Shown here one piece after another: positions 2,612 to 26,843 of a stretch of 28,805 bases of DNA (positions are counted from its first letter, which is position 1; every line of letters begins with the position of its first letter). Location: IMG/VR virus record IMGVR_UViG_3300031673_000355, positions 1-28,805 of that record. One strand, 5' to 3'. The notes beneath the pieces are model-generated. The model was not told where the DNA came from. It saw only the letters and a list, made by a program, of their open reading frames with translations, and ran no database searches. The position numbers and the translations under genes are program-made. Source of the DNA: a virus.

Positions 2612-3592
2612 TTAGTAAGAATAAACGACATTATCCTTTGGGTCTTTTGAATAATCAGCCTTAACTTTTTTCATTTCATCTTGAATGGTCTTAAGACTTA
2701 ATGTTGGATCTTTAGCACAAAGCGTTGACTCAACTACTTCTTCGATCTCTTCGTCAACGTCATAAGTGTATGGAGAGTAGTATTTAGGCGAAACTTCTTT
2801 TTTTACAGTTTTAATACAGCCACCAAACTGACCGTTTTTTTGCAAAAAGTCTGTAAGTTTTACTGTACCTTGGTTTGTAATAAGTTCAGCAGAAACATCT
2901 ATAACACCAGTTTGAATAGGACAAGTGGACTTTGTTACTTTAATTTGAAAGAAACCACCGTCTTCAACACTTTCTTTAACCTTGTCAAGAGATGGATCAC
3001 ATTTAATCGTAACTACAGAATCAGCGTAACCTTCCTTAACAGCCTCTGAGCCGTTTAACCAAAGTTCTGGACTATAAGCGTCAGTATAAGTCTTAAGAGT
3101 TTGTTTTCCCTTTGTTCTCAATACCGTTTGCTCGTCCATCATTTTAACTCGACGAAGCCACAATCCATAACGAGTATCGATTTGTGAAATAGAACCACCG
3201 AAGTCTCCTCTGAAAGAACCACGAGCTTTATGTGACATCAGAACACCATATTTAACTATATGGCGTTTGCCCATATGTTGAGCAATCTGAAAACCCATAG
3301 AGGCTGCAAAGAGTGTAATTGTTTCAACAGGTCTATTAAGACCATTTAGAAATTCAACTAACTCAATACCAGCTTGGATTGAACCACCAGGTGTATATAA
3401 AAATAAATAGATTGGATATCCACTTTGAAGCTTAGCGTCTAATGCCTTTGCTTGCTGCATCACGCTACCAACAGATTCACTTGTAACTGGCTGATCCAGA
3501 ACAATAGTATTGTCTGAAGTTAAGGTTAATGTTTTTGCTTGTACGGCTATAGACATTACTATACCGATTAGTATGATTAGTATTTTTTTCAT
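2612..3592 (-). CDS. Exported ClpP-like serine protease
   Basis: This 326-residue protein has a ClpP/crotonase fold and a signal peptide. Residues 1-19 have the basic start MKK, a hydrophobic core and a VQA cleavage site, with no lipobox Cys. The ClpP-like core shows LYTPGGS near 66-71, the nucleophile Ser98 in AASMG, His121 in LMSHKA and a probable Asp191 in YADSV. That order and spacing match the ClpP Ser-His-Asp triad. About 120 C-terminal residues beyond the core, with several Cys, are unassigned. An AGGAG ribosome binding site and a promoter-like element lie upstream, and a terminator follows. The protein should act in the periplasm or outside, without a Clp ATPase. The role could be degrading envelope proteins, lysis or blocking superinfection; this is inference. 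Confidence 0.82.
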   Translation of the reverse strand: MKKILIILIGIVMSIAVQAKTLTLTSDNTIVLDQPVTSESVGSVMQQAKALDAKLQSGYPIYLFLYTPGGSIQAGIELVEFLNGLNRPVETITLFAASMGFQIAQHMGKRHIVKYGVLMSHKARGSFRGDFGGSISQIDTRYGLWLRRVKMMDEQTVLRTKGKQTLKTYTDAYSPELWLNGSEAVKEGYADSVVTIKCDPSLDKVKESVEDGGFFQIKVTKSTCPIQTGVIDVSAELITNQGTVKLTDFLQKNGQFGGCIKTVKKEVSPKYYSPYTYDVDEEIEEVVESTLCAKDPTLSLKTIQDEMKKVKADYSKDPKDNVVYSY

Positions 3593-14167: not shown

Positions 14168-16048
14168 TTATCCCCAAAATATCCTGCCCTTCTTCTTTAT
14201 ACCTGATATACCATCTTTTGTAGCAGCTTCGGATATTTTACCCTTCATAGCTCTTTCATTGAGAGTTTCAGCCATTTTCTTAGTCTGTTCTATTGTGGGT
14301 TTTGCAATTTTTTCAGTATTGTTACCAGCAACTGCCGTGATAATTTTAGCGCCTTTAAGGAAGATATTCTGGGCTGGATATCTGATGGCATCCATTATAT
14401 CAGCCGTACCATCGTCACCATGCTCTGGTTTTCCTTCAATTGGCTCGCCTTTGCCATCAAGAGCCCATCTATAGGTGCCAAAAGCATCGGCTACTTGTTT
14501 GTTATTAGGAGTGTCTATAATATAATATTTTCTTACATTACTAGAATTGACAATTTTAGACTGAACACCAGCAATACCGTCTGCCACTACTTTTGTAAAC
14601 TTAGGGCATTTCCAATTAGCCTTTCTTCTTAAGGTCTTAATGTATGCTGGATAGGCTTGGTCTACATACCATCTTTGTACTCCCCAGTCATCTTGTAATT
14701 CTTTTCCATATTTTACAATATCGTCAATTTCTAATTCTGCTAAAGCCATGGTGTCTAAGTGAAGAACTTCTCCACCTGGCAACATACCTAAAACTACCAT
14801 TACTGTTAAGTCGGTAAATCCCCAATCGGCACCACCAATAATAGGTATTCCAAGGCCTTTGATATATTCTTTAAGATATTCAAAGTTATCAATATCACCT
14901 TTATTTCCAGTTATCTTATTAATAGCTTCTCTTACGCTGAGTATATTTAAATTTTTATCAAATCTTGGATAGACTAAACCGCTAGATGATGGCTTGTTAC
15001 AAAGTAATTGTGCTTCACCCATATCCGATGGAGTTTGTTTAAAGTTGTTATGAACAGCCACTAAAGGTTTGTATAAATCACCAATGTCTTCTTGAGGTCT
15101 ATCAACTAAATAGTTTTTCATAATAGGTAACATTGGATGATCTGCTATACCTTGGTAGGCTTCTATTTTTTCATACTTAACCTGAGTTTCAACTGGTAAT
15201 TCTTTCCAATCTTCTGGCATTAAAGTTTGCATTGGAAGCTCTCTTGTCACATATCTTGTAACTTTGGGTAAATCAGCCTTTGCTTCTTCTTTAGAAATTC
15301 TTTCAGTAACATCAATAATGTTCCATCTTAGAATTTTACCGCCAGAGCTAATGGTTTCATCTAGAGTTTTTTCCATCAGTCCACCAGCAAACTTACGAGT
15401 AGATAAGTATATAGTAAGTGGAAAGAATTTTCCCCACATAGATGGAATCATCTTTGCTTCTCTTAAAGCACGAGGATCTTGAACAACATCAACCTCATCG
15501 ATAAACAACATTGGAACGTGCTCTGAGTTTGCTCCAGCAATAGTGGCTGTTACAATGTTAAGCCACACGGTATCACCCTCTGGAGTAATCCAATCAATAT
15601 ATGTTTTACTATCTGACTTTTTAGTCCAGCCATGGTATTCCAAGAAAGGCTTTATCTTACGAAAGAAACCGTTAATATACTGAATGGCCTTTGCAGATTG
15701 AGCTTTAATGGCTGCCATGTGAGCTATTGGAATTTTAAAATGAATCATGCACAACACTTCTAGTGCTGCAGCATTTAGAGTTTTATATGAATCTCGACTT
15801 GATAGCATTGCAACTTGTGGGCATTCAGAGCTTTCACCTGTTTTCATTAAGTTATAGATCACCCACATTGCATCGATAGGTCCATGAGTAGAATCTGGAT
15901 ATACTGTACCCATTGGAAATAGGATATCAAAGAACAGGTAAATCCACGCTCTTAGCTCTTCTTTACTTTCAAGAGGTCTTAGTATTAACTCTCTTTTGAG
16001 AGCATCAAGCTCTTCAGGAGGTAGGTTTTTAAGTTGTTCTGTTAACAT
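14168..16048 (-). CDS. terL: Terminase large subunit
   Basis: This 626-residue protein is the DNA packaging motor and headful nuclease. The ATPase domain has a Walker A-like loop SSRDSYKT at 83-90 (a non-canonical form common in terminases) and Walker B LFIDEVD at 181-187. The RNase H-like nuclease has GGADWGFTD (D408), WYVDQAYP (D463) and the final acidic motif TADIMDAIRYP (D550, D553). The start overlaps the GroEL stop by one base (TAATG) and there is no strong ribosome binding site, so expression is probably coupled to GroEL. No intein or frameshift was seen. Confidence 0.93.
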   Translation of the reverse strand: MLTEQLKNLPPEELDALKRELILRPLESKEELRAWIYLFFDILFPMGTVYPDSTHGPIDAMWVIYNLMKTGESSECPQVAMLSSRDSYKTLNAAALEVLCMIHFKIPIAHMAAIKAQSAKAIQYINGFFRKIKPFLEYHGWTKKSDSKTYIDWITPEGDTVWLNIVTATIAGANSEHVPMLFIDEVDVVQDPRALREAKMIPSMWGKFFPLTIYLSTRKFAGGLMEKTLDETISSGGKILRWNIIDVTERISKEEAKADLPKVTRYVTRELPMQTLMPEDWKELPVETQVKYEKIEAYQGIADHPMLPIMKNYLVDRPQEDIGDLYKPLVAVHNNFKQTPSDMGEAQLLCNKPSSSGLVYPRFDKNLNILSVREAINKITGNKGDIDNFEYLKEYIKGLGIPIIGGADWGFTDLTVMVVLGMLPGGEVLHLDTMALAELEIDDIVKYGKELQDDWGVQRWYVDQAYPAYIKTLRRKANWKCPKFTKVVADGIAGVQSKIVNSSNVRKYYIIDTPNNKQVADAFGTYRWALDGKGEPIEGKPEHGDDGTADIMDAIRYPAQNIFLKGAKIITAVAGNNTEKIAKPTIEQTKKMAETLNERAMKGKISEAATKDGISGIKKKGRIFWG

Positions 16049-17817
16049 TAGTATCGCTCATTGACTTCGTCACCAAGCCTGTCTGCATTATCTAAAGTTC
16101 TTTGAAAGTTGGCACTGTCTTTATATTCCATATTCTCTAGTTCATTGTCTCTAGGAAAAGCAACAATACCTCCAAGGGTACCCATAACAGATGATATAGA
16201 AACGGCATTTTTAATGGCCTGTTCAACTGCTTTCGCAGCGTCTAACAAACCTAGCTTTTTTGCGTCACCAAATTTTTCATTTTCAATATCATAAGATAAA
16301 TTTTTATTAGAAATCATTTTCTCTAAAATTTCTACTACTTCTTCGTCAACATAACCTGAGTTTTCTAATAGTCTAAAGAATGGTTGAAACAAAGAAGGTA
16401 CTAGAATATCCCTTACAATGCCGCTATCTGAATATTTCTCTTGAAGAAGTAATGCAATATTAATAAGCATTCTTCCACCACCAGGCAAACACCCATCAGT
16501 AATAGCTGCTCTTACGGCACATACAGCATCTTCTGCTCGATCTGCTTTTTCCTTAAGCTCACCAGAGGAAGAACCAAATATTTGCAGCTTAGCAATACCC
16601 TTTGTAAGTTTACCAAGCCTTTCTTCTATCAACATTTTTTCAATTTTAGACTCAGACTGCTCTCTTAAGGTTTCAAGCTCAGAAGCTCTAACTTCAATAT
16701 TTGTTGCGTCTGAATCACCAACAATAGTTGTTCTAAACCTATAGATCTCAATCTTATCCATATTTTGACCTAGATCTTCTTCTGTAGCTTCAGACAGAGG
16801 GTTATTCATATCAAAAACCTTGGCTCCAGTAAAGGCTGAAAGATCCATTAAGAAATGTAACTGACCGTTAATCATAGGGCTCATAGGTGTTGTAAGTGGC
16901 ACCACATTAATAGTATTAGGATTGTTAAAATTAAGGGCTAAATTGGTAAGCACTTGATCGTTAAATTTATGAGCCACAATAACTACGTTTGCAAAATCTG
17001 AGTTTCCGCTTACATAGGCTTCGCCAATATTCTGTAGAATATCTTGAATTTGAACCACATCACTTACGGTTCCATCAAATAAGATAAAAAGTGGTTTACT
17101 TAATAAACATCTTTGATGACCCTGATCATTGATAAAGTTTGCATGGAATTTACCAATAGACTCTTCATAGCCTTTGTTAATCGGAAAACCCTCTACAAGT
17201 TCAACCTTATATCCAGAAGGACCAGTCAATTCTTGAATTGTAACGTGAGAAGAACTTCCGTAACCAACTTGATCAAAAGCTTCTATAACTGTCTTAGCCA
17301 TGTCTTTGTCACCATTGGCAGAAATAGTTGCAACTTTCTCTAACAAGTGCTTATTTTTATTTGTAATTTTTATAGCAGACTTTCTAATAGCAGGAATAAT
17401 ATCTGTATTAAGGATTTTTTGGATAACACGAGTAATTTTCTGTGGGCTATATTTCTTGTTTTGCTTACAGAATTCAAAAATATTTCTGATAAGTGCTGCT
17501 GATATAATAGTGGCAGTGGTTGTTCCATCACCAGCTTCGTTTACGGTCTGAATGGCCGCATCTCTAGTTTGTTCAATAATTAAATGTTCATATGCGTTTG
17601 CAGATCCTAAAGATCTGAAAATGGTGACACCATCTTTAGTATTTTTATTTGGTATACCTGGAAGGTCTGACTCAATAATCACGTTTCTTCCACCTGGACC
17701 TAATGAAGAACCTACAATTCTATCGATCTTTGTCATAGTACGTACAATAACTTGCTCTAGGTTACCTATATCACTAGTGAACATTTTTGCAGGTGTCTTT
17801 ACTTTCTTGGTAGCCAT
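16048..17817 (-). CDS. groEL: Phage-encoded GroEL chaperonin
   Basis: This 589-residue chaperonin starts at the ATG at 17817, which has AAAGGAG upstream; the 12 extra codons to 17853 run through the promoter element and are unlikely to be translated. Nucleotide-site motifs are present: SLGPGGRNV (38-46; LGPKG in bacterial GroEL), TKDGV (60-64), GDGTTTAT (96-103, with the catalytic Asp), AEDAVCAVRAA and the Gly-rich CLPGGGR. The protein is about 40 residues longer than E. coli GroEL and lacks the GGM tail. It is coupled to the terminase gene and has its own promoter-like element. It probably folds phage head proteins, possibly with the GroES-like protein at 6395-6715. Confidence 0.93.
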   Translation of the reverse strand: MATKKVKTPAKMFTSDIGNLEQVIVRTMTKIDRIVGSSLGPGGRNVIIESDLPGIPNKNTKDGVTIFRSLGSANAYEHLIIEQTRDAAIQTVNEAGDGTTTATIISAALIRNIFEFCKQNKKYSPQKITRVIQKILNTDIIPAIRKSAIKITNKNKHLLEKVATISANGDKDMAKTVIEAFDQVGYGSSSHVTIQELTGPSGYKVELVEGFPINKGYEESIGKFHANFINDQGHQRCLLSKPLFILFDGTVSDVVQIQDILQNIGEAYVSGNSDFANVVIVAHKFNDQVLTNLALNFNNPNTINVVPLTTPMSPMINGQLHFLMDLSAFTGAKVFDMNNPLSEATEEDLGQNMDKIEIYRFRTTIVGDSDATNIEVRASELETLREQSESKIEKMLIEERLGKLTKGIAKLQIFGSSSGELKEKADRAEDAVCAVRAAITDGCLPGGGRMLINIALLLQEKYSDSGIVRDILVPSLFQPFFRLLENSGYVDEEVVEILEKMISNKNLSYDIENEKFGDAKKLGLLDAAKAVEQAIKNAVSISSVMGTLGGIVAFPRDNELENMEYKDSANFQRTLDNADRLGDEVNERY

Positions 17818-17842
17818 TAGCTCTCCTTTGATCTCACTAGAT

Positions 17843-17850
17843 ATATACCA
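17843..17850 (-). promoter_or_regulatory. GTGGTATAT promoter-like element before groEL
   Basis: On the minus strand this reads AATTGTGGTATATATC, 25 bases before the GroEL ATG. It sits just past the stop of the metallophosphoesterase gene, so it could drive GroEL and terminase separately from the genes upstream. Confidence 0.6.
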
Positions 17851-17853
17851 CAA

Positions 17854-18569: not shown

Positions 18570-19562
18570 CTATATGCCAAGGCCCATCTTTTTAGTTTCT
18601 TGAAAACTTTCTTTAAACCTTTCTTTATGTTTAGATAGCTCTTGAACAACTTCCAAGAAAGAAGAGTCGTCAAGCATAGATCTAACTACAATTTCTTGTA
18701 AATGTGCAATAGAAAAGCCCTTTTCAGATGCCAATCTTGCAGCTTCTTCTTCATCTTTTGTTAAAGTTCTACGAGCAATAAATTTAAGCAAGGCAATAGA
18801 CTCTTTTTCATTAGGTGTGCTAAGTTCTATAACTTTATCGAAACGTCCAGGTCTATCGATCAATGCACCGACACTTGTTTCTGGATTATTAGTTGTAGCA
18901 ACAATAAAGGTAGGTATTTTCTTAAAAGGATTTCCAACACCGTCTAGTAAATTAAGTAACGATGAATCGGCACCGCGTGTGCCATAATACTCTTCTACAG
19001 AACCGCCACCAATATCTTCCATAATTAAGATAAGTCTTGTAACACCTTTACTAAAAGTGCTTTTTCTAAGGAAAAACTTATTAACAGCACTTGATGCAAC
19101 ATCAGAGGTATCCCAAACTACAACACAAGTGCCTTTGTCTTCTTTTAGGTATTTATTACAAACTTCATTGATAGCTGCAGTTTTTCCAACACCAGGAGGT
19201 GAGCACAAAAGAACTGCTCTTTTAGGCTCTCTTTGGATCTTTTTGTAAACTTCAAGTTTGCTGAAAAACTTATTACCTTCATTAAGGATAATAGAGGTGT
19301 TGTCTACTTCTTCTAAAAGCTCATACTCTCTCAATTTAAACTTTTTAAGAGAAGTTCCAAAATTACCATCTTCAATTAAGAAACTTCCAGGTTTTATTAG
19401 GAATAAGCCTTCTTCTTTTTCAGCTTCTTCGTATGAAAATTGTACAATAGCTTCATTGTTTTGAATGGTAACATCTGACTCAGGTATTTCGGTTTCTTTA
19501 CCGCTAACCAGGTCTGCTAATTTTGTAACTTTTTTAACGGTAAACTTTCCGGTGTCGCTCAT
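18570..19562 (-). CDS. AAA+ ATPase (FtsH/Bcs1-like core)
   Basis: This 330-residue protein has an N-terminal part of about 110 residues of unknown fold, then one AAA+ module: Walker A SPPGVGKT (121-128), Walker B LILIMEDIGG (177-186), sensor 1 VATTNNPE (221-228) and two Arg-finger candidates in DRPGRFD (R237, R240). The C-terminal lid is helical. There is no peptidase domain or membrane segment, so it is a remodeller or unfoldase and not a full FtsH. It is linked by TAATG to the small Tyr-rich gene upstream and precedes the phosphoesterase and GroEL, so a role in assembly or protein quality control is plausible but unproven. Confidence 0.85.
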   Translation of the reverse strand: MSDTGKFTVKKVTKLADLVSGKETEIPESDVTIQNNEAIVQFSYEEAEKEEGLFLIKPGSFLIEDGNFGTSLKKFKLREYELLEEVDNTSIILNEGNKFFSKLEVYKKIQREPKRAVLLCSPPGVGKTAAINEVCNKYLKEDKGTCVVVWDTSDVASSAVNKFFLRKSTFSKGVTRLILIMEDIGGGSVEEYYGTRGADSSLLNLLDGVGNPFKKIPTFIVATTNNPETSVGALIDRPGRFDKVIELSTPNEKESIALLKFIARRTLTKDEEEAARLASEKGFSIAHLQEIVVRSMLDDSSFLEVVQELSKHKERFKESFQETKKMGLGI

Positions 19563-19916: not shown

Positions 19917-21311
19917 TTAGGCTAATTGGCCATCAATGTTTTCCATTAACACGTTTTTGCGAGGCTGATAAGCAGCTAAGCAAAGGAAGCGAAAATGGGC
20001 TTCAGGTAGTGACAAGTCACTTACAGCAAGTTTTAATCTGCTATAAGGAGACAATTGATGCATACCCATTGTAGAAGCTTGAAGTAAGTATCCGGTTACA
20101 GAACCAGGAGCACGATTACCAAGATCTTCAAAAGTAGTTGCACCAGCACCGTTAGCTTTAACTCGGCCAATAAATTTGGCACTTGCAGCATCTCCACCAG
20201 CTTCAGAACGATATACGTTGAAGTACTTGGCACCGGAAACAGCAGCAATTGTTAAAGTGGCTTTTTCACCAGCAACGATAGTTTGAGCACCACCGTCATC
20301 TACTTTTTCTACAGACTCACCACGCTCATTAGCTGCAGTAGCTTTATAAGTGTAGTCGCCAGCTTCAAGAACTGAAGCAGCATCAGCAGCAGCAGCAGAA
20401 GTTAAGGTAGCAGGAGCAGCAGGGCTACCAGCACGAGAGCGAGCAGGACGAGTTTTTCCAGACAAGAAACGGCTTGGCTCAAGAGAAACTAAAGCAGACG
20501 AAGTCCACTGAGTTCTTAAGTTAGCACCAGAAGCTTCTTGAGGAGATCCAGCTAGCATGATTCTTTCTTTAGCGAATGCAATTTTGTTGTATGCGCTAAG
20601 AGAGATCGGATCAAGTACTAGTTTATCAGCAGAACCATGTTGCATAGCAGATTTAACAGAAGCATCTTCAATAGCCGCTTGGCTAAGAGTTCCGTTAACA
20701 CTTACAACTACAGTTTGATCTGAACCATACTCGGCAAACATCAAATCTTGTGTGTTTGACAAAGAGTCAGACTCACGAATTTGAGCGTCTACACCGCGCA
20801 TGCTAGGCATCTCTGCTTGAGCAGCAGGGTTACCATCAAATACACCAGCATTTGAGTAGTCAGCTTGACCGCGAAAAGAATCGAATTCGATATCAGCAGC
20901 AAGTTTCATCGCAGCATCACTAGCGGCTCTATCTTCGGCTTTTTTGCCATCGAAAGCGCCAATCATATTAGCGGCAACAGAAACTCGACGAGTTGTACTG
21001 TAGTAGCTCATAGGCACAATAGCACGTACATAGTTACTAGTGTCCTCTTCACCGATTCCGCCCTCAAATTGAGCAGATCCACCAAAAATACCGTAGTCTA
21101 GCTGACGATTGAATTGGATTAGGGTTGACTTAGCATCTTTAACGCTAAGCATTTTCTGTAGCTTGATATGGCTGTCATCAAAAGTGACATTCTCCATAAC
21201 AGGAGATAGATCTTCTACCTGCAATGCAGCGCCTTGCGCAAGCTGGCCAGGAGCGGCATTATAACTACCTGCTTCTAGGGCCTTCATTAGATCATTAAGT
21301 TGTTCGACCAT
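19917..21311 (-). CDS. Major capsid protein with an inserted Ig/FN3-like domain
   Basis: This 464-residue protein is taken as the HK97-fold capsid subunit from its place after the scaffold-like gene, its own terminator, its strong AGGAGG ribosome binding site and the N-terminal motif GAALQVEDL (27-35), a type seen near the N-terminus of many phage capsid proteins. Residues about 295-400 form a separate beta domain: AGDYTYKATAANERGES, then AGEKATLTIAAVSGAKYFNVYRSE, then FIGRV and TTFEDLG, the pattern of Ig/FN3-like domains. The capsid fold resumes with PGSVTGYLLQAS. The insert is Ala/Gly-rich with a GCA repeat. It may decorate the head surface. The fold assignment is by pattern only. Confidence 0.83.
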   Translation of the reverse strand: MVEQLNDLMKALEAGSYNAAPGQLAQGAALQVEDLSPVMENVTFDDSHIKLQKMLSVKDAKSTLIQFNRQLDYGIFGGSAQFEGGIGEEDTSNYVRAIVPMSYYSTTRRVSVAANMIGAFDGKKAEDRAASDAAMKLAADIEFDSFRGQADYSNAGVFDGNPAAQAEMPSMRGVDAQIRESDSLSNTQDLMFAEYGSDQTVVVSVNGTLSQAAIEDASVKSAMQHGSADKLVLDPISLSAYNKIAFAKERIMLAGSPQEASGANLRTQWTSSALVSLEPSRFLSGKTRPARSRAGSPAAPATLTSAAAADAASVLEAGDYTYKATAANERGESVEKVDDGGAQTIVAGEKATLTIAAVSGAKYFNVYRSEAGGDAASAKFIGRVKANGAGATTFEDLGNRAPGSVTGYLLQASTMGMHQLSPYSRLKLAVSDLSLPEAHFRFLCLAAYQPRKNVLMENIDGQLA

Positions 21312-21332: not shown

Positions 21333-22097
21333 TTATACAAGTAAATGTTTAATTGTTTCTAAATTGTTATTGCCATCCAGATAGTACTGATCAATTTTTT
21401 GTTTATCAGTCTTTTCCAGCTTTCCTTCACGAATCTTTTGAGTTAAACGAGTAGAGATTTCAGATTTTGAAAGTTTAGAAACATCAGCTTTCTCATCTTC
21501 TATTACGACTTCATCTTCTGACTTCTGAATATACTCAATTCTAGTAATAGCTTTTTGCTTTGGAGCAGAACTATCGCCTTTAACGAATTTAGTAAACGCA
21601 GTGGTCAGTTTTTCAAGAGATTTTTTAAGATCTTCTTTTTCTTTTTTGACATTATCTAATTCTGACTTTAAAAGTTCAGACTCAGTATTATCATCAGAGG
21701 CCTCGATCTTCGTTTCAGCTTTTTCCTCAGACTTGGCAATTACTTGCTCTTCAGCCTTTGGTTCAACTACTTCTTCAGAAGATTCAGTGCCAAGAGCACG
21801 TTGAATTGATTCGTAATGGGCTTCGGCTTCATTTTTAGTCATTGAGGCGTACATTTTATCCATTTCATCAATATCTTCTTCGTCATAGTCGAAATCTGCT
21901 ACGATTTCTTCGGTCTCTTCGGATTTCTGAATTTCCTCACTGTTATCAGCAGCTTTAGCAGAAACTTTTACATCAGTCTTTTTAGACTTTGTAAGAATTT
22001 CTTCTTCTTTTGTTGCTTCTGATTTAGTAAGGTGTTCAGCGAACTGAGCTTCTACTTCACTAATCAGGGTAGCCATGTCTTGTTCAGAATATTTCAT
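21333..22097 (-). CDS. Putative scaffold protein with repeated KSE motifs
   Basis: The start is placed at the ATG at 22097 (AAAGGAG upstream); an in-frame TTG two codons earlier is less likely. The 254-residue product is very acidic, rich in Lys, Glu and Ser, with a coiled-coil-like stretch (SELLKSELDNVKKEKEDLKK) and disordered flanks, just upstream of the capsid gene. This is the usual position and composition of a scaffold. The tripeptide KSE occurs six times (in TKSEAT, QKSEET, AKSEEK, LKSELD, QKSEDE, SKSEIS). These may be sites cut by the prohead protease encoded divergently at 22753; that is inference. Confidence 0.75.
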   Translation of the reverse strand: MKYSEQDMATLISEVEAQFAEHLTKSEATKEEEILTKSKKTDVKVSAKAADNSEEIQKSEETEEIVADFDYDEEDIDEMDKMYASMTKNEAEAHYESIQRALGTESSEEVVEPKAEEQVIAKSEEKAETKIEASDDNTESELLKSELDNVKKEKEDLKKSLEKLTTAFTKFVKGDSSAPKQKAITRIEYIQKSEDEVVIEDEKADVSKLSKSEISTRLTQKIREGKLEKTDKQKIDQYYLDGNNNLETIKHLLV

Positions 22098-22125
22098 GTG
22101 CAAACTCCTTTATTAGTTAAATAGA

Positions 22126-22752: not shown

Positions 22753-25700
22753 ATGTCTGAAGAACAAAAAGAAAAAGGTACATTCATCCACGGTATCGCA
22801 GCGTCTGAGCATTTAGACAGTTCTGGCGAGCGTATTAGGGTTGATGGTATTGATATTTCTAGTTTGACCAAAGATGGTGTTTTCAATTTTGAGCATCAAA
22901 GCAAAGAAGCCTCGGCAATTGTTGGAAAAATTACACACGCCAAAAAGATCTTGAAGGAATCTGACTGTGATAATGAAAGTCATAAGTATTTCTGGAATAA
23001 GATCAAAATGCCTTATCTATATGTTGCAGGCGAATTATTCGATGTAGATGGCCATCAGGCAGCCAAAGATGTTGCAGCCATGCTTAAATACGATAATCGA
23101 AATAAAGACAAAAAAGAGTCTAAAAGGCTAATCAACTTCTCTATTGAAGGTTCTCGCCTTGAAAAGAAAGGTGCTGAAATCTTAAAATCCATAGCCAGAA
23201 AGATATCTATAACTATTACACCATGTAATAAAGTCTGTGAAGCTGAAGAGCTTAAACCAGAAGAAATCGAAAATGCCCAAAAAATGAAGAAATTTGGTGA
23301 GCATCAAAATACATTCAGTATGATTCAAGATCTTATGGGAAAAAGCGAAGAGCATTTTGCATCTTGTGAAACGATGGAAAAAACTAATTGGGGCGAAATG
23401 GGCATGGGCGCTACAATTAAGGCTGAAATGCCAAAACCATCTATTACTAATGAAATTGGCGATATATCTAAACCCAATAAAGGTTTTGGAGGTATCAAAG
23501 ATGCTACACCTAAACCTGAAAAACCAGACTATGGCAAGGTTATTGTAAAAAGTAAAAAGAAAAAAGTTACAATGACTGCAAAAGAAGCTGTCAAAGAACA
23601 TGAGGAATTGGTTGATGTGTTAGATTCAAAAAGTCATAAAGATGACAAAAAAGAAGCTAAGAAGCAGCGTAAAGAACTTAAAGAATATAAAAAGAAGTTA
23701 GATAAAACTGAGCCTAAAGAAGATCTTTATCATATACATGAAGGTAATCAACAAATTACATCAAAGCCTGCTACTCTAGGTGAAATCCAAAGAATACACG
23801 GTAAAATTAAAGATTTAGAAGGAAAAGGTTTTCGAGTTCTTCAACACAAACCTAAACTAGCCATAAATAAAGCTGAAGATCTAGAGAAAAAAGAATTCTT
23901 CAATCGTATTTCAAATAAATTCAATCAAATGAAACAAAGACATGCTGTTAATCAAACTGCAAAACGAATGCAAAGAGAAAGACAGTCCACAGGGCAAGAA
24001 TTTGATAGAGACAAAACAATTGTAGCCAACAAAGACAAAACAACAATGGGTTCTGGAAGAACACCAGGTTCAACTGATATTCATATTCCTAAAAACAGAA
24101 CTAGATTTTTATTTGCTCCAGATGCTATAAATCCTAAGCCACGTTTAGAACCAGAACCATCATTAAAAGAAAGAAAATCAAATATCCAAAGAGTTGATAG
24201 ATCAGTTATACAAGCGCAACATGAAAGAGAAGATGCAAAAGCTCGTGTTAAATCTAAAGAGTCAGGTAGTGCTGATGCTGATACTGTCAAAATCGGTAAG
24301 TCTATGTCTAACTTTAGAAAATCAATTTCTGCTGGCTCTGGTATGGGTGCTCCATCTACATTATCTGGCGGTGCTGCACTTCAGTCTGAAGATTTAGGCA
24401 AAACTCTTTCTACACCTTTTGAAAACGACCAAGTAAATGTTTCATCAAAATCTAATAGATTTAAAAAATCTAAAGATAAGAAAAAGAAGATGGAAAAATC
24501 TGAAGATGACAGAATGCCTTTTAAACGTGGAGACACTGTTAGATTACACGGTGGTGCAAGCAATCCTGGTGGTGGAAAAATCACTTCTGGTAAGAAATAT
24601 GTAGTTCATGGTGAGGCCAAAACTGGCACAAGATCTCATTGGGTAGTGCCAGTTGGAGAAAAGAATTCCAGAAATGGTGCTTATCATAGAAGTGATAGAA
24701 TCTACCATCATGAAGATCCAAAACTTGAAAGCCATACTCTACCTCATAATGAAATTAAAAAATCTGAAGCTCTTAAGATCGTATCTAACGAAGCTTTTAA
24801 TAATTTTGAAAAGAAAGAAGAGCTTGTGTCTTTTTTACAAGAAAGACTTTCAAGCAGATCTGAGAATGAAATACTTGCTATTGCTAAGACTGTGGCCTAT
24901 GTTCAAATCAAAAAACAAGAGTTAATGCTTGCTGATATGATGAAGGGATCTAAAAACGTAAGAGAGCAACGTGCAAAAGTTTTTGGCAAAAGATCTCAAC
25001 CAGCTAAAGGATCTCCAATGAGAGATAAGCATATGCAATCTATCTCTGACTTCTCTGAAAAATTTCTAGGTTTAAAGCTCAACCCATCAGGTGGAAAAAT
25101 TAACGAGAAAACTGGTGAGCGAAGAGATGAAAATCCAGATGTTGGTGTTGATAAACCTGACTGGAGATCTGGTCAATTAGAATCACAATGGAATCCAGAA
25201 GCAGCCGTTCATGAGCTTAGTCATATTTTCTTGTTACCAAAAGGTGTTGGACTAGAAGATGGTCAAAGACTTATGGATAAGCAATATGCTGATGTTCAAA
25301 AAAAATACGGATATATGAAACAAAAGCGTTCAGAAGGTGAAGTACAACCTATGGCTGCAGAACAATTAATTCGTAGAATGTTAGGCTTGCCTGCAAGTGA
25401 AGTTGCTGTACCTGTTAAGGCAGGCGAACCTCCACGTACTGGTGTTGAAGAACCTAATCGTGAAATTGCAACTAGAGTTCAACGCGGTAAAACTAGAGAT
25501 GGTGAAGATAAGCATGTTGATCTTATTAGACAAGTTCGTTTATTAAGTCCAGACAATAGAAAACGCATACACCAAATTATGACTGGTCAAGTTCTTTTTC
25601 ATCCAGAACATGGATGGTACGATAACCCAGATGTAAATGCAAAAATTAATGCAAGAGCTACGGCACCTGCAGGTCTTGATCCAAGAGCAAGTGGCACACC

Positions 25701-26448
25701 TGAAGCGTTACCTGACAATGCTTGGGCATCTCACGGTATGGAGCAAGCAGCGCCAATGGAAGAAATGCAATCAGCGCAAAGTAAAGCTCAAGCAATTGAC
25801 CCTGGACTAAAAAGAAAAGTTATTAAACATGAAAGTATAGTTTCTTTTGTTAAAAATGAATACGACTTAACAGATGAAGAAGCTGAAACAATTGCTAAGT
25901 CTATTTCTACAAAACGTGTAGAAGATTTACAAACTGACTTAATGAAACAAAAACCAGTAATGGCAGATGCTCATAAAAAAAATGCAAAATTACTTGTTAA
26001 TAAAATAAAAAAGCAAAGGGAATCACATCAAATAAAAGACCCTAAAGATAAGGAAGATCATTTCAATAATAATTGGAACAACGCTAAAAATCTATTTCCA
26101 GAAGATCTACACGATCATATAAAATCGCATGTTAGAGAAAAGGTAGAAAAAAGTGAAAAAGATAATGTTGTTAATATGCCAGCTAAAAATTGGAGTAAGG
26201 GTTCAAACAATGAACACGGCAATAAAGTAGGTACCACAGGCAAAACTGGAATTCATGAACACGGTGGCATTCATAGGCAATCATCAATAATTCCGAGATC
26301 TAAAGGTGGAGTTATGACTATTGTATCTAGCCACTTACATTCTCCAGATGGAGATGAAGTAAGACATGAAACAAAAAAAGATGCTGTAAATTTTTTGAAT
26401 TCCTTAAGAAAAAAAACTAAAAAAGAAATGAAGGATATGCCGTTCTAA
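22753..26448 (+). CDS. Prohead protease polyprotein (XkdF-like N-terminus, 1231 residues)
   Basis: Residues 1-165 resemble an XkdF/prohead serine protease: GIAASEHLDSSGERI, FNFEH (H48), YVAGELFD, INFSIEG (probable nucleophile S130) and ISITITP before the domain end. The rest is Lys-rich linkers with several modules: a small alpha/beta patch (325-372), a capsid-N-terminus-like motif GGAALQSEDL (539-548), an SH3-like patch (588-655), a helical repeat (680-715 and 1023-1055), a zinc-protease-like motif HELSH (820-824) in its own region (about 760-950), and a His-rich C-terminal module (1160-1220). KSE occurs at 197-199, 582-584, 670-672 and 1133-1135, often between modules. Family proteases are usually a few hundred residues, so the extension is striking. 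It is divergent from the scaffold-capsid operon and coupled to a Nudix gene by TAATG. Confidence 0.78.
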   Translation: MSEEQKEKGTFIHGIAASEHLDSSGERIRVDGIDISSLTKDGVFNFEHQSKEASAIVGKITHAKKILKESDCDNESHKYFWNKIKMPYLYVAGELFDVDGHQAAKDVAAMLKYDNRNKDKKESKRLINFSIEGSRLEKKGAEILKSIARKISITITPCNKVCEAEELKPEEIENAQKMKKFGEHQNTFSMIQDLMGKSEEHFASCETMEKTNWGEMGMGATIKAEMPKPSITNEIGDISKPNKGFGGIKDATPKPEKPDYGKVIVKSKKKKVTMTAKEAVKEHEELVDVLDSKSHKDDKKEAKKQRKELKEYKKKLDKTEPKEDLYHIHEGNQQITSKPATLGEIQRIHGKIKDLEGKGFRVLQHKPKLAINKAEDLEKKEFFNRISNKFNQMKQRHAVNQTAKRMQRERQSTGQEFDRDKTIVANKDKTTMGSGRTPGSTDIHIPKNRTRFLFAPDAINPKPRLEPEPSLKERKSNIQRVDRSVIQAQHEREDAKARVKSKESGSADADTVKIGKSMSNFRKSISAGSGMGAPSTLSGGAALQSEDLGKTLSTPFENDQVNVSSKSNRFKKSKDKKKKMEKSEDDRMPFKRGDTVRLHGGASNPGGGKITSGKKYVVHGEAKTGTRSHWVVPVGEKNSRNGAYHRSDRIYHHEDPKLESHTLPHNEIKKSEALKIVSNEAFNNFEKKEELVSFLQERLSSRSENEILAIAKTVAYVQIKKQELMLADMMKGSKNVREQRAKVFGKRSQPAKGSPMRDKHMQSISDFSEKFLGLKLNPSGGKINEKTGERRDENPDVGVDKPDWRSGQLESQWNPEAAVHELSHIFLLPKGVGLEDGQRLMDKQYADVQKKYGYMKQKRSEGEVQPMAAEQLIRRMLGLPASEVAVPVKAGEPPRTGVEEPNREIATRVQRGKTRDGEDKHVDLIRQVRLLSPDNRKRIHQIMTGQVLFHPEHGWYDNPDVNAKINARATAPAGLDPRASGTPEALPDNAWASHGMEQAAPMEEMQSAQSKAQAIDPGLKRKVIKHESIVSFVKNEYDLTDEEAETIAKSISTKRVEDLQTDLMKQKPVMADAHKKNAKLLVNKIKKQRESHQIKDPKDKEDHFNNNWNNAKNLFPEDLHDHIKSHVREKVEKSEKDNVVNMPAKNWSKGSNNEHGNKVGTTGKTGIHEHGGIHRQSSIIPRSKGGVMTIVSSHLHSPDGDEVRHETKKDAVNFLNSLRKKTKKEMKDMPF

Positions 26449-26843
26449 TGTCTAAATCACCCTCTAATCGCGTAGCGTTTGCACTTATTTGCGACGATGA
26501 TCACAATGTTCTTGTAGGTATCAGAAATGATAACGGCAAATACACGATGCCTGGTGGACACATAGAGGTAAAAGAAGACCCATTTGAAGGTGTTGCTAGA
26601 GAGCTTAAAGAAGAAGCAGGTCTTGATGCCCTTGAAATGAAAATTGTCAAGGTCACGAAAAGAGGCAACATGGTTATCTATGTGATGAAGATTACCGTAG
26701 CCAGAGAGCAAGAGATAGATTGCTCTAAAGACCCAGACAAAGAATGTGATGCTTGGTTTTATTTAGATCCAAATGAAATTGCAGACCAACTACATGTTGA
26801 TCTGCAAGATAATGCTGTATTACAAGCTTGGATGGAAAGTTAA
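26448..26843 (+). CDS. Nudix hydrolase
   Basis: This 131-residue protein has a complete Nudix box: G37, E43 and RELKEEAGL (51-59), fitting GX5EX7REUXEEXGU. It should hydrolyse a nucleoside diphosphate linked to another group; the substrate cannot be told, with candidates including oxidised dNTPs, ADP-ribose and capped RNA. The ATG overlaps the stop of the protease polyprotein (TAATG), so it is co-translated with a late protein. The stop abuts the stop of the convergent gene with no gap. Confidence 0.93.
   Translation: MSKSPSNRVAFALICDDDHNVLVGIRNDNGKYTMPGGHIEVKEDPFEGVARELKEEAGLDALEMKIVKVTKRGNMVIYVMKITVAREQEIDCSKDPDKECDAWFYLDPNEIADQLHVDLQDNAVLQAWMES

Follow-up and report, generated by a model that had tools for sequence, protein, structure and literature searches.

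How a prohead protease enters the assembling head is an open question, for which a C-terminal signal of the protease has been proposed in phage SPN3US (PMC7411985). The question also concerns a gene in the window analyzed here, a stretch of 28,805 nt from a 28.8-kb viral contig (IMG/VR record IMGVR_UViG_3300031673_000355) whose positions serve as coordinates throughout: its product, a polyprotein of 1231 amino acids (aa), begins with a prohead protease domain and continues far beyond it. As judged from the sequence, part of the tail of this chain imitates the N-terminus of the major capsid protein (MCP) that the same phage encodes. Such a copy, conserved from SPO1/Twort-like to Myxococcus phages, constitutes a candidate for the entry signal, testable in the model phage SPO1. 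Our favored explanation, held with moderate rather than high confidence, is that the polyprotein is a prohead protease heading a chain with a capsid mimic, a helical module and exchangeable cargo, which would be loaded into the head, cut by itself and relieved of its cargo by ejection.

Profile matches and the predicted model identify residues ~4-165 as an assemblin-fold prohead protease, the maturation protease of the phage itself. Residues 4-163 match phrog_1028 ('head maturation protease', E 5.7e-8), and residues 11-170 of the AlphaFold2 (AF2) model mostly exceed 90 in per-residue confidence (pLDDT). According to VIA-align, the nearest solved fold is T4 gp21 (PDB ID: 5jbl; Z 10.1, root-mean-square deviation 2.7, 125 residues), followed by 24 herpesvirus protease entries (Z 8.7 to 6.4); a Foldseek search with the long, 1199-residue model gave no significant E-value, and T4 gp21 came up only via VIA. 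H48 and S130, by their conservation the likely catalytic dyad, are invariant in a four-sequence alignment (window, locus L002, Myxococcus phage Mx1, and SPO1), as are T154, P157, and N159. Annotated phages with matches to the protease comprise Mx1 and SPO1-like Bacillus phages, and a viral-contig scan yielded 54 relatives. These form two clades, one including the window and Mx1, with open reading frames (ORFs) of mostly 406-1428 aa, and a SPO1/Twort-like one with 240-330 aa (e.g., 256 aa in SPO1 gp3.2). The polyprotein (P0001) has no match in Pfam or NCBIfam, and no relative of the protease domain was found in bacterial species-representative contigs scanned with two peptide patterns. A preliminary description of the window, made from its letters, had placed such a protease at the head of a multidomain chain and considered ~165 residues enough for it; the former is borne out by the profile match and the model, and the latter agrees with the size of the small relatives. 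A 1428-aa protease-headed ORF of another contig (L041, 7986-12272) contains an intein (PF14890, E 4e-9) at residues 672-1080.

The resemblance between the tail and the capsid protein, hereafter the tag, is visible in direct comparison. In the window, the tag FRK-SISAGSGMGAPSTLSGGAALQSEDL (its Lys being K523) aligns with LMK-ALEAGSYNAAPGQLAQGAALQVEDL of the MCP (Lys K10); the corresponding pairs of protease and MCP are FAK-AMEAGNFNAAPSTLQGGSALQSES and LRK-AMEAGNFNAKPSTLVQGSAMQIED in Mx1, and LDK-SLEAGYEVDPEKMEGGDVFRKESL and LNK-ALEAGHTVNPLDLEGGGAFRVESL in SPO1, where the mimic takes up residues ~165-199 of gp3.2. Divergent tags still follow the MCP of their own phage (KALSAGYQTSNQTGGSALRPESL vs. 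KALSAGYQTSGQTGGSALRVESL in L046; TTGHGTTPDTQVNAGALRRESL vs. TTGYGITPDTQTDAGALRREFL in L055). In 33 phages, tag identity is 48% to the phage's own MCP vs. 38% to the MCPs of other phages (0 of 10,000 permutations as high), a difference to which common ancestry contributes. A profile built from 21 MCP N-termini only was run against a set of 4048 ORFs that drew on every locus and on the complete Mx1 genome. Ranked after the MCPs, the hits at E <0.05 were protease ORFs throughout, save for MCPs of remote relatives (Mx1 protease, E 5e-11; window protease, E 9.8e-6). With an iterated profile, whose training set partly consists of the tags themselves, the tag was detected at an independent E-value (iE) <1e-3 in 45 of 52 protease sequences, near-copies included, mostly far under 1e-8 (window, iE 1.3e-15). 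SPO1, Twort-like phages, and Mx1 belong to this positive set, two of the seven misses are ORFs truncated at a contig end, and four of the five protease ORFs fetched later carry the tag by the same profile. T4 gp21 has no detectable counterpart of it.

The Lys at which tag and MCP align probably marks a cleavage position. In solved herellevirus MCP structures (PDB ID: 9row, 9rox, and 9roz), which are identical to chain 5lii_P (phage 812/K type) throughout the aligned region, the protein begins at S25 of a 463-aa chain, immediately behind a Lys that shares its alignment column with the tag Lys and with K10 of the window MCP. A tryptic peptide of phage K, (K)SFQTGYGITPDTQ..., is compatible with a cut after Lys (PMC5258805) but uninformative, because trypsin makes the identical cut; tryptic proteomics is blind to such sites, which could explain their being missed. 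Among 21 window ORFs tested, the motif hydrophobic-x-K[ST] is enriched in only three: the scaffold (nine sites vs. 1.3 expected), its small neighbor (Table 1), and the polyprotein (14 vs. 4.2); a control motif with Glu/Asp showed no enrichment in the window ORFs. The SPO1 scaffold contains 11 sites vs. 1.0 expected. T4 gp22, with 16 LxE sites vs. 5.7 expected (the known rule of T4), has no Lys-Ser/Thr excess, and the scaffolds of the window, L002, Mx1, and SPO1 show the opposite, i.e., hydrophobic-x-K[ST] and no LxE. Within the polyprotein, eight of the 14 sites fall in linkers, whose composition predicts 1.6, and 11 lie in or at most eight residues from a linker, as do all four sites of the form hxKS[ED] (h, hydrophobic; K197, K582, K670, and K1133), which stand at block boundaries.

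Other explanations of these sites were dropped. A general Lys-Ser excess in the polyprotein does not account for them (plain KS, 15 vs. 12.3 expected, p 0.24), and neither the window scaffold nor the polyprotein has an excess of LxE (T4-like), SxE (phiKZ-like), or AxE (SPN3US-like) motifs. A Glu in the P1 position of the tag (KALE-AG) would leave P1 variable among phages (S, T, D, A, I), and the solved chain starts behind Lys. Cleavage after Lys in hydrophobic-x-Lys-Ser/Thr sites is likely the rule of this protease, and self-cutting of the chain in cis, which the preliminary description had envisaged, is well supported at the level of sequence by enrichment of the motif in the expected substrates. 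A different motif, (PK)K[LM]AASE, recurs where domains seem to meet in polyproteins, whether or not these include the protease (L013, L014, L015, L016, L018, L067, L071, L073, L074, L076, and others), and may be a further signal for cleavage or linkers. Outside the protease domain, the window polyprotein does not contain it.

Could the capsid-like stretch be a self-cleavage site alone, copying the extended sequence around the MCP cut without any targeting role? Such a site would fit the Lys aligned with the MCP start, which is kept in almost all tags, and C-terminal autocleavage is known for prohead proteases, those of phiKZ and SPN3US shedding their C-terminal tails in this way (PMC5694885). 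However, the ~22 residues that follow in the tag have no counterpart at scaffold sites of this rule and are therefore probably not needed for cutting, and exactly this downstream part (AG..P..L..G.AL) is the best-conserved section of the tag. Work on SPN3US also argues for a packaging signal in the C-tail: protease missing part of the C-terminal propeptide was active in vitro and absent from proheads (PMC7411985). We consider a pure cleavage site rather unlikely.

The remainder of the chain consists of compact patches joined by linkers, as proposed before. In the AF2 model, which spans residues 1-1199, ordered blocks (~262-318, 373-413, 471-500, 667-745, 740-970, and 1017-1140) alternate with low-confidence stretches (182-259, 320-342, 351-374, 414-467, 501-674, 980-1015, and 1140-1199). 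Sequence comparison suggests that the core layout of the clade is protease, linker, capsid mimic, and helical module, with cargo inserted before, between, or after. The helical module at residues 672-735 was seen in protease ORFs alone, 19 of them; the repetition once ascribed to it is doubtful, as the second copy is weak. Two further patches read as domains in the preliminary description are unconfirmed: the SH3-like patch, for which model confidence is very low, and the His-rich C-terminus, for which it is very low up to residue 1199; neither has relatives in the fetched loci. When 50,697 phage records were searched by tblastn, neither the SH3-like patch nor the C-terminal region found a match. 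That description had missed both the capsid mimic and the likely rule of cutting after Lys.

The candidate cargo of the window polyprotein is a zincin-like metalloprotease. The HELSH motif had already been taken for that of a zinc protease, and H820, E821, H824, and the downstream E863 and E870 are indeed invariant across 14 sequences; in the AF2 model of residues 1-1199, the second of two, pLDDT in this region is ~97. Fifteen viral loci, near-copies among them, contain the domain, for which tblastn gave no match in the 50,697 phage records. Several of its carriers are phage polyproteins free of the protease domain (L066, 1533 aa; L067, L071, L073, and L076), and in L075 it stands alone (221 aa). 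In five of seven such contigs, including all the larger ones, the protease has an ORF of its own, which in four of the five carries a significant tag. The polyproteins with zincin but no protease lack the tag, and a universal role of the tag as packaging signal for cargo is unsupported. One of them (L066, 3796-8397; 1533 aa) combines an S-AdoMet-lyase-like match, a phrog_3170 module that also occurs fused to the protease in L020, the zincin, and a PI3-kinase-like C-terminus; the L073 relative has an ART-PolyVal match (E 3e-5) under the curated cut-off.

Other members of the clade carry different cargo in the protease ORF. A PI3/PI4-kinase-like domain is found in Mx1 (a weak Pfam match, E 0.019), L031, L040, L043, and L045, and in L079 by its DRxxGN...HIDN motif; others have GNAT (L042), a second type of HExxH domain (L020-L024), or DUF6321 (C-terminus of the L002 homolog, in place of the His-rich tail). 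Most of these Pfam matches are under the curated cut-off, with catalytic motifs visible. On the protease tree, the zincin of the window must have been gained or lost at least three times; its presence in fused and free polyproteins, with other cargo in the slot, indicates that cargo moves between the protease chain and free polyproteins. The extension is no mere filler: the catalytic residues of the zincin are kept, and other lineages place PI3/PI4-kinase-like or GNAT domains there.

An alternative is that the cargo works during assembly in the producing cell or within the head, e.g., with the zincin as a second maturation protease, and is not injected. Fusion to an assembly enzyme would suit such a function, and DdrB of phage P1 is cut ahead of packaging, possibly by its own zincin (PMC5512222). 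Yet the cargo varies among relatives (zincin, kinase-like, GNAT, none) while the capsid and protease genes stay, unlike what would be expected of a needed assembly function. We know of no maturation role for kinases and acetyltransferases, both found as cargo, and regard the alternative as unlikely. It is improbable that the extension serves chiefly to fill the scaffold or core, as in viruses where protease and scaffold are fused, with an incidental HExxH: Lys-rich, largely disordered linkers and long helices agree with filler, but a separate scaffold gene lies beside that of the MCP, HExxH...E is invariant in the 14 sequences, and the domain is present in protease-free polyproteins.

Several observations nevertheless weigh against our favored explanation. 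The likeness of the tags to the MCP of their own phage is confounded by phylogeny. The start of the deposited herellevirus chain is no N-terminal sequencing result. The p-values of the motif are somewhat optimistic, because the motif was noticed in these proteins before it was tested; the T4 and neighbor-gene controls, together with the PDB start site, lessen this bias. The protease chains of Mx1 and many relatives have no significant excess of hydrophobic-x-K[ST], and heavy cutting may accordingly be confined to the window phage and some others. Finally, a search with the zincin fold of the first model (pLDDT 67) against solved structures gave no significant match, and the second model was structure-searched only within the 1199-residue chain; the zincin assignment thus rests on its motif.

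In the favored explanation – the self-cutting, cargo-bearing protease – the mimic, alone or with the helical module, would bring the protease and the attached cargo into the scaffold or shell of the assembling prohead through contacts that the N-terminus of the capsid protein otherwise makes. Once activated, the protease would act on hydrophobic-x-Lys-Ser/Thr/Ala sites, cutting behind the Lys in its own tail as well as in MCP and scaffold, at the positions suggested by motif statistics. These cuts would release the protease itself, a block with the zincin, and smaller fragments. Zincin and other cargo might then stay in the head and probably exit with the DNA into the host, by analogy with polyvalent proteins and with T4 Alt, a processed ejection protein (PMC5694885); injection of the cargo is what we infer from this analogy. 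Elsewhere in the clade, the slot is filled by DUF6321, a different HExxH domain, GNAT, or a PI3/PI4-kinase-like enzyme, and in some phages separate polyproteins carry the cargo. A bolder generalization, which we put forward tentatively and at less than even confidence, is that the protease poses as the N-terminus of a capsid subunit and forms a general loading device: any effector spliced into the chain would enter the prohead, be cut free after Lys, and be ejected into the next host, the mimic being the targeting signal of this class of proteases. If so, the exchangeable zincin/kinase-like/acetyltransferase chain would constitute a built-in loading and release device for proteins sent into bacteria, which could be used for finding new effectors.

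Table 1. Features of the polyprotein and adjoining genes, in window coordinates; hyphens within sequences mark predicted cut positions
Feature	Position	Strand	Basis and remarks
Protease-headed polyprotein, 1231 aa	22753..26448	+	single unbroken frame, ATG start; 885-aa homolog in L002
Assemblin-type prohead protease domain, residues 4-165	22762..23247	+	phrog_1028, AF2 model, fold match
Predicted cut K197-S198 (DLMGK-SEE), just past protease	23341..23346	+	hxKS[ED], low-confidence linker
Helical hairpin module, residues 275-318	23575..23706	+	ordered in AF2; also in polyproteins of L068, L073, and L074, and another ORF of L012
Capsid mimic tag, residues 518-552	24304..24408	+	FRK-SISAGSGMGAPSTLSGGAALQSEDL, resembles own MCP N-terminus
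Predicted cut K523-S524 within tag	24319..24324	+	alignment with MCP K10-A11
Predicted cut K582-S583 (KKMEK-SEDD)	24496..24501	+	hxKS[ED] motif
SH3-like patch, residues 583-668	24499..24756	+	low-confidence model, no relative
Predicted cut K670-S671 (NEIKK-SEAL)	24760..24765	+	hxKS[ED] motif
Helical module, residues 672-735	24766..24957	+	3' of tag; iE down to 1e-26 besides window
Zincin-like metalloprotease cargo, residues 732-970	24946..25662	+	HELSH 820-824 (25210-25224), candidate third ligand E863
C-terminal helical region, residues 1026-1140	25828..26172	+	contains weak second helical-module copy (~1025-1056, iE 0.18)
Predicted cut K1133-S1134 (EKVEK-SEKD)	26149..26154	+	hxKS[ED] motif
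His-rich C-terminal tail, residues 1134-1231	26152..26445	+	unique to window, low confidence
MCP	19917..21311	-	phrog_752, E 3e-43; N-terminus MVEQLNDLMK-ALEAGSYNAAPGQLAQGAALQVEDL
Probable scaffold	21333..22103	-	beside MCP; place is that of SPO1 gp3.3
Small SPOR-like protein, 130 aa	22126..22518	-	adjoins scaffold; 3 hydrophobic-x-K[ST] sites vs. 0.3 expected
NUDIX hydrolase gene	26448..26843	+	one-base overlap with polyprotein stop (TAATG); adjacent in L002 too

The gene lies in a neighborhood of head and packaging genes, its orientation divergent from that of the MCP and scaffold genes. A ribosome-binding-like AAAGGAA stands immediately 5' of its ATG, and the L002 homolog, encoded on a separate contig (L002/L008), shares ~80% identity with the polyprotein in the protease and 66% in the zincin region; this plausible start site and the like layout of the homolog rule out a chance or artefactual ORF. 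The small SPOR-like product is possibly an internal head or core protein. The NUDIX gene has a further, partial match to phrog_15528, a family annotated as portal protein; in Mx1, a gene of 4.4 kb labeled 'NUDIX hydrolase' is found close to the capsid gene. The window also encodes portal, terminase, a helicase, and SbcC/SbcD; between the terminase and capsid genes lie a GroEL-like chaperonin (16048-17853, minus strand; phrog_5725, E 8e-88), present in Mx1 as well, and an AAA ATPase (18570-19562, minus strand). A second, unrelated protease-like ORF of 326 aa in the SbcC/SbcD region (2612-3592, minus strand) matches phrog_94/133/1684/2976 ('head maturation protease'), and the replication region of Mx1 has a 'Clp protease-like protein'. 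No tRNA genes were found in the window.

No paper describing a capsid mimic or a fusion of protease and cargo was found in the open literature, most subscription journals being outside its scope. The preliminary description knew of no characterized phage protease with this set of modules, which holds for characterized ones; the architecture with other cargo is nevertheless present in GenBank as the Mx1 'putative prohead protease' (WNM70322.1). This uncharacterized 1239-aa protein shares with the window protein the protease, the mimic, and the long tail, and differs by a PI3/PI4-kinase-like domain in the place of the zincin. The closest small relatives, SPO1 gp3.2 and other herellevirus proteases (28-31% identity), likewise have the capsid mimic, and the SPO1 scaffold is rich in the same motif; unlike the window protein, they comprise only 240-330 aa and lack cargo domains. 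T4 gp21 and the herpesvirus assemblins resemble it in the predicted fold over ~125 residues, the conserved His and Ser, and the position in the head module, whereas T4 gp21 has 212 aa, no extension, no detected mimic, and the LxE rule. The proteases of SPN3US (gp245) and phiKZ share a C-terminal tail, proposed in SPN3US to target the prohead core; in SPN3US, however, this is a 64-residue propeptide with the AXE rule, no cargo, and no reported capsid mimic. Polyvalent proteins (Iyer et al. 2017, PMC5512222) are phage proteins of several domains, among them zincins, GNATs, and kinases, and are believed to be packaged in the virion and injected. They resemble the window protein in combining several disparate domains in one polypeptide (here, a serine protease and HExxH) and in their setting among head and packaging genes. 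Their assemblin-like peptidases were always C-terminal in that survey (PMC5512222), whereas in the window protein the peptidase heads the chain and is the prohead protease of the phage itself, accompanied by a capsid mimic. By these comparisons, the assemblin-type prohead protease and the polyvalent protein are known parts, and it is their architecture that appears to be new.

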